Origin: Sulfodiicoccus acidiphilus
Lineage (GTDB): Archaea; Thermoproteota; Thermoprotei_A; Sulfolobales; Sulfolobaceae
Length of the DNA: 64,000 nt
Assembly (NCBI RefSeq): GCF_003967175.1
Contig: NZ_AP018553.1
Location: forward strand, 496,001-560,000
Reading direction: 5' to 3'
Shown piece after piece: positions 37,018 through 44,181 of the stretch (position 1 is the first letter of the stretch; every line of letters starts with the position of its first letter). A model generated the notes under the pieces. It saw nothing but the letters and a program-made list of their open reading frames with translations. It was not told where the DNA came from and searched no databases. The translations under genes were made by a program, and so were the position numbers.

Positions 37018-38283
37018 ATGACTCGCGTGGTTGTGATAGGGGGTGGGGCCACGGGGCTCTTCGTTGCCCTCGACCTCTCCCTCAGAGGCGTCGAAGTCGT
37101 TGTGGTAGAGAGGGGAGACATAGGGTCTGGAACGTCGGGGAAGTTCCACGGTATGCTCCACAGCGGAGCTAGGTATGCCGTCAACGATCCTCAGGCTGCG
37201 AGGGAGTGCGTTCAAGAGAGCGAGGTGATGTCTAAGATAGCTCCTCACGCCGTTGAGGATACTGGGGGGCTCTTCGTTGCCCTCAACGAAGAGGAGGCCA
37301 ATTTCGGGGACAAGTTGTCGTCAGCTCTCAAGTCAGTGGGGGCAGAGCATAGGGAAGTGGAGAGGGAGGAAGCATTGAAACAGGAGCCGGCCCTGTCGCA
37401 CGCCCTCAGGAGGGCCATCTGGGTACACGACAGGGTAGTTCACGGATACGATCTGTTGAGCAGTGTGGCCCTGACGGCCTTCGAGAACGGAGCCAAGGTA
37501 CTTACGTTCACAGAGGTAGTTGACTTCCTAAAAGGAGGGGGAGTTAAAGTGAGGGACGTCCCGTCGGGAAGGACCTACGAAATCAGGTCAGATCACGTCG
37601 TGAATGCGGCCGGGCCGTGGACGTTCAGGTTGGCCGAGTTGGAGGGTGAGACGGGAGTGGAGGTGATGCCCACGGCTGGAACCATGGCGGTGTTCTCGGG
37701 AAGGCCGGTCAACTCTGTCCTGAACAGAATGAGGCCCCCTTCAGATGGGGACATTCTCCTCCCCTACGGCGGAAACGTGATCGCTGGAACCACGGCCAAG
37801 GTGGTGGACGACCCAAACCAGGTGGAGGCGGATGATGAGGAGGTGGAGCTACTTCGTAGGGAGTCCTCAGCCATGGTGCCTTGGCTAGAGGGGAGGAAAC
37901 CCGTTCGAACTTACGCTTCGGTGAGGCCGTTGGTGAAGCAACCTGGCGCCTCAGGGAGGAGCGCCACGAGGGACTTCGTGATCCACGAACACCACTCCGG
38001 CCTCGTCACCTCCGTGATAGGTGGCAAACTCACCACCTCCAGACTAGTAGGGGAGAAGACAGCGGATCGAGTGGGGGAGACCCTAGGTGTAAGGGAAAGG
38101 TCTAGGACAGCGTTTACGGAACTCCTCTCCCCGAGGTCGGAGAAGGGGGTTAGGCTTATCGAGAAGGGGTTAGGCTTCGTCCACGTGAATTCCAGGGAAG
38201 GAGGAGTTGACCAGGAAAGGTACGAAGTGGTGGCCTGCTGGGCGACATCGATCGCCCTGAGGAGGATGTCCCTTGAAGGTTGA
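37018..38283 (+). CDS. FAD-dependent glycerol-3-phosphate dehydrogenase (GlpA/GlpD-like)
   Basis: The 421-residue protein has the DAO-fold FAD motif VVVIGGGATGLFVALDLSLRG, the GSGTSGKFHGMLHSGARYAV loop typical of GlpA/GlpD, the VVNAAGPWTF segment and a C-terminal SVIGGKLTTSRLVGE. It oxidises sn-glycerol 3-phosphate to DHAP and passes electrons to a quinone. It lacks the extra C-terminal Fe-S domain of bacterial GlpA. The glycerol kinase at 42676 would supply its substrate. The coding end overlaps the next start by 11 bp. Confidence 0.85.
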   Translation: MTRVVVIGGGATGLFVALDLSLRGVEVVVVERGDIGSGTSGKFHGMLHSGARYAVNDPQAARECVQESEVMSKIAPHAVEDTGGLFVALNEEEANFGDKLSSALKSVGAEHREVEREEALKQEPALSHALRRAIWVHDRVVHGYDLLSSVALTAFENGAKVLTFTEVVDFLKGGGVKVRDVPSGRTYEIRSDHVVNAAGPWTFRLAELEGETGVEVMPTAGTMAVFSGRPVNSVLNRMRPPSDGDILLPYGGNVIAGTTAKVVDDPNQVEADDEEVELLRRESSAMVPWLEGRKPVRTYASVRPLVKQPGASGRSATRDFVIHEHHSGLVTSVIGGKLTTSRLVGEKTADRVGETLGVRERSRTAFTELLSPRSEKGVRLIEKGLGFVHVNSREGGVDQERYEVVACWATSIALRRMSLEG

Positions 38284-38725
38284 GGGGAAGTTCGAAGTGG
38301 AGGCACCTAAGGACAGGGTCGATTCCTTCCTCTCCGATCCTAACCAGTTCTCCCAATGTCTGCCAGGCCTCAGGGAGATGAAGGTGGAGACAGAGGGCTT
38401 CAGGGCCTCCTTCAAACTCGACGTGAGCGGGGCAGGCATATCCCAGCTCAGCACCGTCTCGTCAACCATGACATTCAAGGTGGTCAGGTCCGCTGAAGGT
38501 GTTTCGATAAGGGGAGAAGGTAAAGCTGTTGGAGCGAAGGTGAGGCTAGAATTGAACGTGAGAACTCTCGGAACGGGCAGTGTGACGACTGTCGAGTGGG
38601 ATGCGTCCCTTGACGTGGGACTTCTGGCTAGGTTCTTCGGGGACGAGCTCCTTAGAAGGGTCACCGACGACAACGTCAGGCAACTCACCTCTTGCGTGCA
38701 GGCTAAGGTTTCGTCTCCTAGCTAG
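38273..38725 (+). CDS. CoxG-like SRPBCC (START-fold) protein
   Basis: The 150-residue protein has the CoxG pattern: KFEVEAPKDRVDSFLSDPNQFSQCLPGL at the N-terminus, alternating beta-strands, and DVGLLARFFGDELLRRVTDDNV before the final helix. In CO-dehydrogenase organisms CoxG recruits the enzyme to the membrane; relatives bind hydrophobic ligands. No CO dehydrogenase is in this window. TTG 38273 lies 7 bp after GGAGG (38261-38265) and overlaps the upstream gene, so translation is coupled. Confidence 0.82.
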   Translation: MKVEGKFEVEAPKDRVDSFLSDPNQFSQCLPGLREMKVETEGFRASFKLDVSGAGISQLSTVSSTMTFKVVRSAEGVSIRGEGKAVGAKVRLELNVRTLGTGSVTTVEWDASLDVGLLARFFGDELLRRVTDDNVRQLTSCVQAKVSSPS

Positions 38726-38730
38726 AAACG

Positions 38731-38737
38731 TTTATAA
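38731..38737 (+). promoter_or_regulatory. TATA box of the membrane protein at 38760
   Basis: TTTATAA is 26 nt before an in-frame GTG at 38760 and favours that codon over the ATG at 38778 as a leaderless start. Confidence 0.5.
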
Positions 38738-38759
38738 CGATGGTCCTACCACCACGACC

Positions 38760-39425
38760 GTGGACCATAAGTTCGTAATGGGTTGGGGAGGAGGTCCGTA
38801 CTACACTGGCCCTAGACCTCCCTATTTGGCGGCATTGGACGTCCTGGCTAGGAGCCTGGGGCTAATCCTCCCGGCATTGATTGGGTTGTTGGCGCTCATA
38901 ATTTTGGGATTGGTAGGAGGTGCTATAGCGGCCGCAGTCACTCCCATAGTCGGACCCCTGGGAGCTACTGCAGTCGCTGCGTTCTTCGATCTGTTGGGGG
39001 AGGCGGTTCAGGTACTCGTAGTTTACGTGACGGCCTTCGAGGTAAGTTCTGTCATCTCGGGCGGGATGGCTGACCTGAGGAGGGCCTGGCAGTTAACCAC
39101 CTCTAACGCTTCCTCGGTAGCTCCAGTCGCCTTGGTTTTGGGACTCTTCGATGCCCTCCTCGCCTTCGCTCACTTTCCAGGCACTTTCCTATTAGTTGGT
39201 CTCGCCAACGTTGTGGCGTTCATCGCGGCGGGGTTCCTCGCCAACGGCACAGTACCTGGGATAGGGAGGACTCTGAGTTGGTACGCAGACTACTTCTCCT
39301 TAGACGGTGTGAGTGCCCTGATCTTGCTCGTAGTCTCTCTTCTTTCACTAATTCCTATTTTAGATCTACTGACCATCCCGTATGGAGCGGCCCTGGCCGT
39401 CGCCATGGTGAGGAGGACGCCTTAG
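38760..39425 (+). CDS. Polytopic membrane protein, unknown function
   Basis: About 221 residues with five or six hydrophobic helices: GLILPALIGLLALIILGLVG, the segment around residues 65-90, VAPVALVLGLFDALLAFAH, LLVGLANVVAFIAAGFLAN and ALILLVVSLLSLIPILDLL. The N-terminus is polar with GWGGGPYYTGPRPPY. The start is set by the TATA box at 38731-38737; the open frame upstream runs inside the SRPBCC gene in another frame and is not used. I recognise no family. Confidence 0.7.
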   Translation: MDHKFVMGWGGGPYYTGPRPPYLAALDVLARSLGLILPALIGLLALIILGLVGGAIAAAVTPIVGPLGATAVAAFFDLLGEAVQVLVVYVTAFEVSSVISGGMADLRRAWQLTTSNASSVAPVALVLGLFDALLAFAHFPGTFLLVGLANVVAFIAAGFLANGTVPGIGRTLSWYADYFSLDGVSALILLVVSLLSLIPILDLLTIPYGAALAVAMVRRTP

Positions 39426-40780: not shown

Positions 40781-42118
40781 CTAAACGCAGCAACTCATCT
40801 TACTTACGTCCGAACTGAAGGCGAGGGCAGCCAACCTAAGGGCCTCGGACATGGTGGGAAACACGTGAATGGTATCCACTAGGTCGTCCACTGTGGCGCC
40901 TAGTTTGACTGCCAACGCTGCCTCATTGATTACCTCTGCCGCGTTCTCGCCCACCATGTGTACCCCCACTATCCTTCTCCCTACTGTCACCAACTTGACG
41001 AGGCCTCGGCTCTCCCCCAGTATCCTGGCCTTGGCTACGTCCCTCATGTACACCTTCCTGCTCTGGGCTTTCGGGACCTCTCTCTCCACCAATCCTACGC
41101 TCGCTATGTTGGGCTGGGTGAAGACAGCTTGGGGAACGCTGAGGAGATCGATCCTCCTGTGGGACTCCTTCAGGGCGTTCTCCGCTGCCACGGTCCCCTG
41201 TCTCCCCGCCAAAGCCTCGAGCATTTTCCCACCTATCACGTCTCCGGCCGCGAAGATGTTAGGGTTGGTCGTCCTGAGCTCGTCGTCTACTCTTATTCCA
41301 CCGGCCTCGTTCAATTCTACTCCCGCTGCTTCCAGATTGAGGTCGACGTTGGGCTTCCTTCCAGTGGCCAGTAGAACCTCGTCGGCCTCCACTTCCCCTA
41401 AGTTAGTCACCACGACCTTTCCCCTTGACTTCCTCACTTCCTTCACGGATACTCCCGTGGCCACCACGACACCCTCTTCCTCCAAGATCTTTTTGGCCTC
41501 AACGGAGATCTCAGGTTCCCAGTTGGGGAGAAGGACTTGACTCCTCTGCAACACAGCCACCTCCACTCCGAGCCTCCTGTACATCTGGGCGAACTCTAGG
41601 GCCAGTGCCCTCCCGCCTAAGATGACCAGCGAATCCACTTTCTTGTCAGGGGAGAGGGCCTCCACGTTTGTCCAGTAACCAACCTCCCTTAGTCCTGGGA
41701 CGTCAGGGACAGCCGGCGACGAACCTGTGGCCACGACGAACTTCTTAGCCTCCACAGTCGCGGGGCCAACCTTAAGCGAGTGAGGTGATGTGAAGTGGGC
41801 CTTACCCTCAAATACCTCGGCGTCGTAGGTAGAGAGGACGTCCTCGTACTTCTCTCTCCTCAGGGAGGAGACCAACTGCTCCTTCTCCTCGAACGTCTTC
41901 CTGAAGGGAGGAAAGCATTCTGTATCGCAAACTTCCCTAGCGTACCTGTAAACCTCCCCGGCTCTCAGGACCTTCTTGGAAGGGACGCATCCAACGTTCA
42001 CACACGTCCCCCCTATGGGGCCAGTGCCTACCAGCGCGGGTTTCACACCTAACTCGTTGGCCTTTATTAGCGCGGCGAACCCCGCGGCCCCGTAACCTAC
42101 TATGGCTAGCTCTCTCAC
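40781..42118 (-). CDS. merA: Mercury(II) reductase
   Basis: The 445-residue flavoprotein disulfide reductase has the FAD motif LAIVGYGAAGFAALIKA, the redox-active GGTCVNVGCVPSKK (C39, C44), a NAD(P)H-binding SLVILGGRALALEFAQMYRRLG and the C-terminal vicinal cysteine pair SCCV (C443, C444), the hallmark of MerA. It reduces Hg(II) to Hg(0). The start is GTG 42118, which overlaps the TGA of the HMA gene (GTGA); the longer open frame upstream overlaps that gene and has no family match. MerA lacks the N-terminal HMA domain, which is supplied as a separate protein just upstream. Confidence 0.95.
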   Translation of the reverse strand: MRELAIVGYGAAGFAALIKANELGVKPALVGTGPIGGTCVNVGCVPSKKVLRAGEVYRYAREVCDTECFPPFRKTFEEKEQLVSSLRREKYEDVLSTYDAEVFEGKAHFTSPHSLKVGPATVEAKKFVVATGSSPAVPDVPGLREVGYWTNVEALSPDKKVDSLVILGGRALALEFAQMYRRLGVEVAVLQRSQVLLPNWEPEISVEAKKILEEEGVVVATGVSVKEVRKSRGKVVVTNLGEVEADEVLLATGRKPNVDLNLEAAGVELNEAGGIRVDDELRTTNPNIFAAGDVIGGKMLEALAGRQGTVAAENALKESHRRIDLLSVPQAVFTQPNIASVGLVEREVPKAQSRKVYMRDVAKARILGESRGLVKLVTVGRRIVGVHMVGENAAEVINEAALAVKLGATVDDLVDTIHVFPTMSEALRLAALAFSSDVSKMSCCV

Positions 42119-42375
42119 CCTACCACCGTGTAGTGAAGGATAGTGTAGTTGTGACGCGTACCAGCCGAGGCATTCCTGAGTGCCTCCCTTATCAAGTCTT
42201 CCCCGAGTTCCCTTGTTAGGCTCAGACTGACGAGGGCCCTCCCCGAAGGTAGCAGCTCCACCTTCACTTCCCTGACGCCCTCCAAAGACTTCAGGGCTTC
42301 CTCGACTCTCCTGGCACACCTGTCACAAGTCACGTCAGTTACGGTGAGCTCGGCCCTGAACTCACTCAACAACAC
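42115..42375 (-). CDS. Stand-alone heavy-metal-associated (HMA) domain protein of the mer operon
   Basis: About 86 residues with an HMA fold: ELTVTDVTCDRCARRVEEALKSLEGVREVKVELL, in which CDRC is the metal-binding CxxC, followed by the second beta-alpha-beta half. It resembles the NmerA domain that many bacterial MerA proteins carry at their own N-terminus. It probably hands Hg(II) to MerA's C-terminal cysteines. GTG 42375 is taken as the start because it falls at the end of merH; TTG 42369 is possible. Both ends are overlapped by neighbours, so the three genes are tightly coupled. Confidence 0.78.
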   Translation of the reverse strand: MLLSEFRAELTVTDVTCDRCARRVEEALKSLEGVREVKVELLPSGRALVSLSLTRELGEDLIREALRNASAGTRHNYTILHYTVVG

Positions 42376-42506
42376 GTCGCCCCTGCCGATTTCCTCTCGA
42401 AGTCGTCGGCGCAGTGGGAGCAACAGAAGTAATGGGTTGCCCCGTTGAGGTCCCTAGCGTAGACCTCGCCCTCATTTAGGGGGGCTCCGCAGTTCTCGCA
42501 CTTCAT
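42366..42506 (-). CDS. merH: MerH-like TRASH-domain metallochaperone
   Basis: From ATG 42506 the protein has 46 residues with the TRASH pattern MKCENCGAPL, YARDLNGATHYFCCSHCADDF and a C-terminal CC pair. In Sulfolobus, MerH is encoded upstream of merA and traffics Hg(II). The frame is open to 42608, but the upstream residues are hydrophobic and unlike MerH. A TATA box (reverse strand, within 42574-42586) would give a short leader. No ArsR-type MerR gene is seen nearby. Confidence 0.82.
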   Translation of the reverse strand: MKCENCGAPLNEGEVYARDLNGATHYFCCSHCADDFERKSAGATCC

Positions 42507-42675
42507 TTCTTCCTTGCGGTTCAATCTCATGTTCAACTTCAATTTCTCACCCAGTTCCACTGCTGAGAGGACTATTATAAATATTTCTATAACTGAACAC
42601 TTGTTCATGTATATGATTATTGAGAATGCCTGTCTTCTAGTCGAGACATATTAGCTCTTAATACTGTGACCACAT

Positions 42676-44181
42676 GTGACTCGTTTCGTTCTTTCCTTGG
42701 ACGAGGGCACTACCAGTGCGAGGGCCGCGGTGTTCAGCGAGGAAGCGGAACTCGTCGGCTTCGGTCAGTACGAGTTCCCCCAGTTCTTTCCACGTCCTGG
42801 GTGGGTGGAGCAGGACCCCGAGGCCATATGGGAGGCCCAGCTCAAGGCCATCAGGGACGCCCTGCGAACTGCTAAGGTCGAACCTTCCCAGATCTCGGCC
42901 GTGGGGGTGACGAACCAGAGGGAGACCACCGTCGTTTGGGACGCGAGGACTGGGAGGCCAGTGTACAACGCCATAGTCTGGCAGGACAGGAGGACGGCCA
43001 AGTTCACGGACGAGCTGAGGAACAACTACGCCGAGTTCTTTAAGGAGAGGACAGGCCTGATCCCCGACCCCTACTTCAGCGCCTCTAAGTTGATCTGGTT
43101 GTTGGATAACGTTCCTGGCCTCAGGGAGAAAGCGGAGAAGGGAGACGTGAAGTTCGGAACGATAGACACATACCTCATATGGAAGTTGACTGGAGGAAAG
43201 GCTCACGTAACCGACTACAGCAACGCGTCTAGGACTATGCTGTTCAACCTGAGGAGGTTGGAGTGGGACGACGACATTGTTGAATTGCTTAAGGTTCCTC
43301 AATCTATTCTCCCAGAGCCCCTGCCATCTAGCTGGAACTACGGGGACGCGGTGGAGGGAGTAGGGGCTCCGGTGCCAGTGTCTGGAGACGCCGGCGATCA
43401 ACAGGCGGCCCTCTTCGGACAGGCGGCCATGTCACCAGGCGAAGTGAAGTCCACTTACGGCACTGGGAACTTCGTTCTCATGAACCTGGGCTTTGACCCT
43501 GTGAAATCCAAGGACTTACTCACCACCATCGCGTGGGGACTCGATAAGAGAAGGGTCTCTTACGCACTGGAAGGAAGCGTCTTCGCCACTGGGGCCGCAG
43601 TTCAGTGGCTTAGGGACGGTCTGAAGATCTTGGACCGCTCGGACGAGGTCGAGTCTCTCGCCTCCACCTCGAGAGATAACGAGGGGGTGTACTTCGTCCC
43701 CGCTTTCGTTGGACTAGGTACCCCTTACTGGGACCCATACGCTAGAGGTGTGATAGTTGGAATTACCAGGGGCACTTCGAGGTCCACCATAGCCCGGGCT
43801 ACGCTGGAGTCCATTGCCTACCAGACTAGGGACGTGATCGAGGTGATGGAGAAGGATTCAGGGGCTAAGATCTCCAGACTGAAGGTGGACGGTGGCGCTA
43901 CTAGGGATAGACTGCTCATGCAGTTCCAGGCCGACGTCCTCGGAGTGCCGGTGGTCAGACCCAAGGTGTTGGAGACTACTGCCCTAGGATCGGCCTTCCT
44001 AGCGGGGTTGGCTGTGGACTTGTGGTCGTTGGAGGACATTGTGGGAAAGTGGAAACCAGAAGCGACCTTTTACCCGACCATGTTAGAAGAACGAAGGGAG
44101 AAGCTCTACAGAGGATGGAAGGAGGCGGTGAAGAGGTCATTGGGGTGGGCCAGGGTGGTTGAGGGGGAGCAAGCACCATAG
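42676..44181 (+). CDS. glpK: Glycerol kinase
   Basis: The 501-residue FGGY-family kinase has [14 protein letters not shown] (phosphate-1), [21 protein letters not shown], the [14 protein letters not shown] phosphate-2 motif, [10 protein letters not shown] and a C-terminal [19 protein letters not shown]. It phosphorylates glycerol, producing the substrate of the GlpD-like enzyme at 37018. GTG 42676 is the start; A/T-rich sequence at about 42645-42654 is a possible TATA box. It is divergent from the mer operon. No glycerol facilitator gene is adjacent. Confidence 0.95.

Follow-up and report, generated by a model that had tools for sequence, protein, structure and literature searches.

The 64,000-nucleotide stretch of Sulfodiicoccus acidiphilus HS-1 analysed here (hereafter the window; contig NZ_AP018553.1, positions 496,001 to 560,000) carries on its minus strand the genes merH, hma, which encodes a stand-alone HMA protein, and merA, arranged head to tail with a 4-bp overlap at each junction. 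Counted from the first letter of the window, the locus comprises the following features:

42366..42542, minus strand: merH, TRASH-type metal-binding protein, likely start TTG 42542 or ATG 42530
42115..42369, minus strand: hma, stand-alone HMA protein of the HNY subfamily, TTG start, PF00403 match
40781..42118, minus strand: merA, mercury(II) reductase core without NmerA domain, GTG start, TIGR02053
42591..42609, no strand assigned: merH-type operator palindrome, TGAACACTTGTTCA, core 42594-42607, weight score 18.2
42573..42586, minus strand: TATA-like stretch AAATATTTATAATA between operator and merH, a putative promoter read from the sequence

The initial annotation had described all three genes as overlapping through GTGA. 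The 4-bp overlaps are real and the hma stop and the GTG start of merA do form GTGA, but the junction of merH and hma is TTGA (merH stop with the TTG of hma) if the TTG start applies; GTG 42375 or TTG 42372 are also possible starts of hma. The start assigned to MerH, ATG 42506, is very probably internal. Because the window reads MKLNMRLN... and the relatives MKLNMRLN... and MKMRIGL..., the true start very probably lies upstream at ATG 42530 or TTG 42542, judging from these N-termini. MerH is a short CxxC...FCCxxC protein heading the merA operon (CxxC...HYFCCSHC), and both its N-terminus and its position at the operon head agree with merH of the relatives. Queried without the likely N-terminus, it remained below the curated cut-offs (YHS, 24.7 vs 30.3 bits; TRASH_HVO_1752_C, 24.9 vs 27 bits).

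MerA exceeded the TIGR02053 cut-off (578 vs 454 bits) and was the sole protein in the S. acidiphilus genome to do so. As had been read from the sequence at the outset, it retains both the catalytic CxxxxC (GGTCVNVGCVPSK) and the C-terminal vicinal cysteines (MSCCV) and has no HMA domain fused to its N-terminus. The protein starts with VRELAIVGYG, and hma is a separate reading frame. Three other genomes (G072, G155 and G175; L053, L068 and L073) encode a second MerA that is only distantly related (about 40% identity) and is followed by a MerB-type gene, and the MerB domain was shown for the equivalent gene of G072. The merA2 frame of G155 is broken by a transposon-like frame, and an operator lies directly ahead of the merA2 start in G155 and G175.

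A palindrome close to TATGAACAnnTGTTCATAT is found ahead of merH in the window and in most relatives, and is poor or absent at L049, L051, L057 and L070. On a weight matrix of twenty sites, selected by eye and tested after the loci were seen, the score of the window operator was reached in 1 of 1000 simulated sequences, and that of the merH operator in the second Sulfodiicoccus genome (G171) in none of 1000. The exact pattern had no site in the window genome (G000), its operator being found by the weight matrix only. Where relatives have merR, a glycerol kinase-like gene is divergent to merH in the window. In Sulfodiicoccus merR is not adjacent to merH; a MerR-like gene is unlinked (G000:C1:2316092-2316439), and its product shares 48-58% identity with 20 of 22 proteins regarded as merH-adjacent MerR, the other two, which gave no match, possibly not being MerR. 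No metal genes are evident around this ArsR-type regulator gene (L292). The glycerol kinase-like gene adjoins the mer operon in both Sulfodiicoccus genomes (window 37018-39425 and 42676-44181; L044), and a glycerol-3-phosphate dehydrogenase-like gene with its followers forms a block that is inverted between the two.

The HMA protein matches PF00403 with 41.4 bits (gathering cut-off, 24.8) and contains the CxxC motif. An AlphaFold2 model built from a two-sequence alignment (pLDDT 89.4) predicts the beta-alpha-beta-beta-alpha-beta order (E-H-E-E-H-E) of the ferredoxin-like HMA fold, and places G74, H77, N78 and Y79 in the loop that joins helix 2 (61-72) to the final strand (80-87). In HMA folds this loop sits beside the CxxC loop. 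Inspected by eye, the N-terminus shows no hydrophobic segment ahead of the first strand (residue 8) and no visible signal peptide, and the protein is therefore probably cytosolic. The sequence search ended in a near-tie between NmerA (2kt2, E 2.5e-4) and the copper chaperone CopZ (1cpz, 2.4e-4). Among the structural matches listed, copper HMA domains were best (Z 10.9), MerP reached Z 9.9 and NmerA was absent; the top Foldseek ranks, circular permutants of ribosomal protein S6, were set aside as sharing topology only. Sequence and predicted fold thus do not tell Hg from Cu for this protein. Cyanobacterial Atx1 has a histidine in the same loop. The part of PMC4235346 consulted deals with His61 of another protein and lends no support to this parallel.

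The distribution of hma was followed through the mer operons of the order. Among 197 genomes, 43 had a MerA above the TIGR02053 cut-off, and 46 loci were covered, comprising 40 inspected merA neighbourhoods and 6 scanned out of 7 further stretches. In the Sulfolobaceae, 29 of 31 genomes have this MerA, invariably with merH upstream (29/29), and in 27 of the 29 operons the two genes are at most 54 bp apart, with no space for another gene. The statement in the initial annotation that the usual operon has no HMA gene at this place was borne out in all 27 other family genomes with the operon, and the comparison it had proposed with other Sulfolobales showed that hma between merH and merA is not common, being confined to the window and G171 (contig JAFMDM010000049.1), the two Sulfodiicoccus genomes in the set. 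The idea of an HMA protein as general partner of archaeal merA was ruled out on the same count, and hma is an addition in Sulfodiicoccus or a loss in all others, not the general state.

In G171 (L044/L084) the three genes follow in the same order, and MerA is 76% and the HMA protein 51% identical to that of the window; since this is the only other genome of the genus in the set, the arrangement is not a chance one. The merH and hma genes of G171 are separated by a short gap, in contrast to the 4-base overlap in the window. Between the two genomes hma evolves faster than its neighbours (pN/pS 0.52, against 0.18-0.19 for merH and merA), and the CxxC motif is nevertheless kept. Because PF00403 at E 1e-4 overlooked the G171 gene, family alignments were used for the searches instead. 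No confirmed match was obtained from the viral contigs searched, and the plasmids searched gave only one weak match, from Arthrobacter (32% over 78%).

The relatives of the window protein constitute a family of stand-alone HMA proteins of about 90 residues. Strong matches (E 1e-24 or better) were detected in 14 genomes of the order, two of which have a second member (1e-13 to 1e-14), and the next matches, at 1e-7, were HMA domains of other kinds. No strong match was found outside the order among 398 genomes drawn from the phylum. C19, C22, A29, S72, H77 and Y79 are invariant in ten family sequences (alignment A2). In a tree of 24 rows, calculated without NmerA, the family as a whole separates from the HMA domains of CopZ and ATPases (94/90) and is split into HEY (11 rows, support 94/93) and HNY (5 rows, 87/84). 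The window protein belongs to the HNY subfamily, which has the motif ASxGxxHNY, and no sixth member was found in 229 genomes of the class with the five as query. The co-occurrence of the family with MerA (14/14 genomes) was discarded as evidence, since 29 of 31 family genomes have MerA anyway. HEY-type genes (L270, L273, L269) adjoin, in some genomes, a cytochrome b/Rieske-type cluster, and in G078 a TRASH-like gene is close by; these HEY proteins might provide copper for respiration.

A TRASH gene adjoins the HNY gene in all five members. In both Sulfodiicoccus genomes the partner is merH; in G026 it is a 49-residue TRASH gene with a GTGA overlap, and in G155 and G175, two genomes of another genus, a 125-residue TRASH gene that overlaps by one base. 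The two HMA-TRASH loci of that genus, which are unlinked to merA and are near-copies rather than independent cases, carry the palindrome with scores of 25.0 in G155 (0/1000 simulations) and 21.3 in G175 (2/1000), at a site that overlaps the opening codons of a frame running divergently. A looser pattern, ATGAANANNTNTTCAT, gave four sites genome-wide in each of the two, located at merH, at the merA2-merB cluster, at the HMA-TRASH locus and inside an unrelated frame, and the reversed pattern used as control gave 0-2 matches per genome in 11 genomes. Inspected matches at genes with no evident mercury link numbered one in each of these two genomes (the fourth site just named), two in G078, one in G042 and three in G026, and one further match each in G042 and G102 lay beyond those inspected. 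No operator was detected at the 11 HEY members (best score 9.3) or at the G026 HMA gene, whose best score of 10.6 is below the 95% point of the shuffles, 10.7.

The surroundings of the unlinked genes are also of interest. Divergent to the HMA-TRASH pair of G155 and G175 are genes for a membrane protein and a thioredoxin-like protein, and similar proteins (weak similarity) are encoded divergently to merA in G026. The BLAST comparison behind this used a database of 23 sequences, and its G026, G155p, G175p and G072 rows were evaluated. At L267:4847-6638 (G155) and L268:4926-6805 (G175), two divergent modules flank the merH-type palindrome, one comprising a vicinal-cysteine-pair membrane protein and a TlpA-like thioredoxin and the other the HMA protein and the 125-residue TRASH protein, which together may form a mercury uptake and relay module. 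In G026 the HMA gene lies about 4.3 kb from merA and also among copper-type genes, and broken-frame pieces of a relative of the 125-residue TRASH gene follow it as well. This locus (L275, G026:C30) is a mixed mercury/copper island holding merA, a thioredoxin, two cysteine-pair membrane proteins and a CopZ-type protein, together with an Lrp-TRASH regulator, HMA-TRASH genes and a P-type ATPase.

The operon of Sulfolobus solfataricus is merHAI. The Sulfodiicoccus operon resembles the merH-merA operon of the Sulfolobaceae in the TRASH gene directly ahead of the MerA core and the conserved palindrome upstream, and differs from it in the added hma, the unlinked merR and the divergent glycerol kinase-like gene. 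Like NmerA, the N-terminal domain of bacterial MerA, the window protein is an HMA domain with a CxxC pair that is encoded together with MerA and probably acts ahead of it; unlike NmerA, it is a separate polypeptide with a family-specific loop after helix 2. The origin as a detached NmerA implied by the initial annotation was not supported: none of the 40 scorable MerA loci has a fused HMA domain (of 46 scanned, 6 yielded no core with the motif applied), and the closest relatives detected are archaeal stand-alone HMA proteins, on which grounds a split of the bacterial merA fusion was rejected as the preferred explanation. MerP likewise is encoded by a small stand-alone HMA gene adjoining merA, and in bacteria, at L097 and L099, merA is immediately preceded by an HMA gene whose product has a hydrophobic N-terminus, whereas the window protein lacks such a signal and scores 15.9 bits against a TIGR02052 cut-off of 92.55. 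Being unfused, it is not a member of NmerA, and with no visible export signal and a score far under the model it is not a MerP either. CopZ and Atx1 share its size, fold and CxxC motif, and copper HMA domains lead the structural matches listed; in contrast to them, it is encoded in a mer operon, has Val in place of the usual Met two residues before the first Cys, carries the His-Asn-Tyr loop and reaches at best 37.5 bits in the NCBIfam CopZ models (cut-off, 85).

The HMA protein probably carries Hg(II) in the cytosol, is produced along with MerH and MerA, and works as NmerA does when fused. The operon would give rise jointly to MerH, a free HMA metallochaperone and an arm-less MerA, all of them cytosolic. 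Hg(II) would pass from MerH or protein thiols to the CxxC pair of the HMA protein, then to the C-terminal cysteine pair of MerA and on to the catalytic pair, where it would be reduced to Hg(0). The carrier itself would have been recruited from the archaeal stand-alone HMA proteins, with no splitting of a bacterial MerA. Mercury is favoured as the metal because of the TRASH pairing in three arrangements, the operator, the position in the operon and the separate copper locus. The overlapping gene order in both genomes of the genus, the CxxC motif kept at 51% identity, the conserved loop residues, the grouping of HNY in the tree and the HEY members without operator count in favour of the carrier. 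Against it count the failure of sequence and fold to separate Hg from Cu, the copper-type neighbours and missing operator match in G026, the position of the G155/G175 site in the first codons of a divergent frame at near-copy loci, the 27 of 29 family operons that have no HMA gene, and the faster evolution of hma.

The main competitor is a protein for copper, or for several soft metals, that ended up in the mer operon through a rearrangement, so that its co-expression with merA would mean little. The mainly copper-type sequence and fold neighbours, the varied places of the sister subfamily, some beside a cytochrome b-type cluster, and the HMA-TRASH pair of G026 near CopZ-, Lrp-TRASH- and ATPase-type genes agree with such a role. 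It is set against a tight gene order conserved in two species, an operator of the merH type where G155 and G175 have their unlinked HMA-TRASH pair, and a genome that already has a complete separate copT-copM-copA locus as well as a CopZ-like gene beside another ATPase. We consider it rather unlikely.

A regulatory function, in which the HMA protein and MerH carry Hg(II) to the unlinked MerR-like regulator and set induction instead of reduction, draws on the statement in the part of PMC4500099 consulted that MerH assists metal trafficking to MerR, and on the location of merR outside the Sulfodiicoccus operon, where a carrier might matter more. However, merR is also missing beside merH in relatives that have no hma (L046, L055, L058, L059), and HMA-TRASH pairs elsewhere have no regulator alongside, and we consider this function improbable. 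Lower still ranks a metal sponge that buffers Hg(II) until MerA obtains it via small thiols, with no protein-to-protein transfer: the domain is free and unfused and most relatives manage without one, but the conserved loop residues near the metal site point beyond the mere number of thiols, though they may only tune affinity, and we regard a sponge as very unlikely.

Beyond the Hg(II) carrier of the Sulfodiicoccus operon, a wider proposal can be made more tentatively, and we hold it to be possible though somewhat short of an even chance. The HNY proteins may be dedicated archaeal mercury chaperones that form with TRASH proteins a two-part Hg(II) relay, belong to the MerR regulon even away from merA, and were inserted in the merH-merA operon of Sulfodiicoccus as an equivalent of NmerA. 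The literature search returned no account of an archaeal mer operon that includes an HMA gene, and the parts of PMC3466566 and PMC8261052 consulted, which treat TRASH genes in archaeal mer operons or TRASH proteins, name none there. The merH-hma-merA arrangement is a variant of the known mer operon, previously undescribed within the literature searched.

Considering that the MerA proteins of the order scored here have no NmerA, the route by which Hg(II) is delivered in the cell comes into question. A free HMA carrier encoded in the operon, with TRASH-paired relatives that have the same operator in two genomes, would offer a testable route of this kind, and Sulfodiicoccus would allow MerA to be studied with and without its carrier in a natural setting where no fusion has to be cut.
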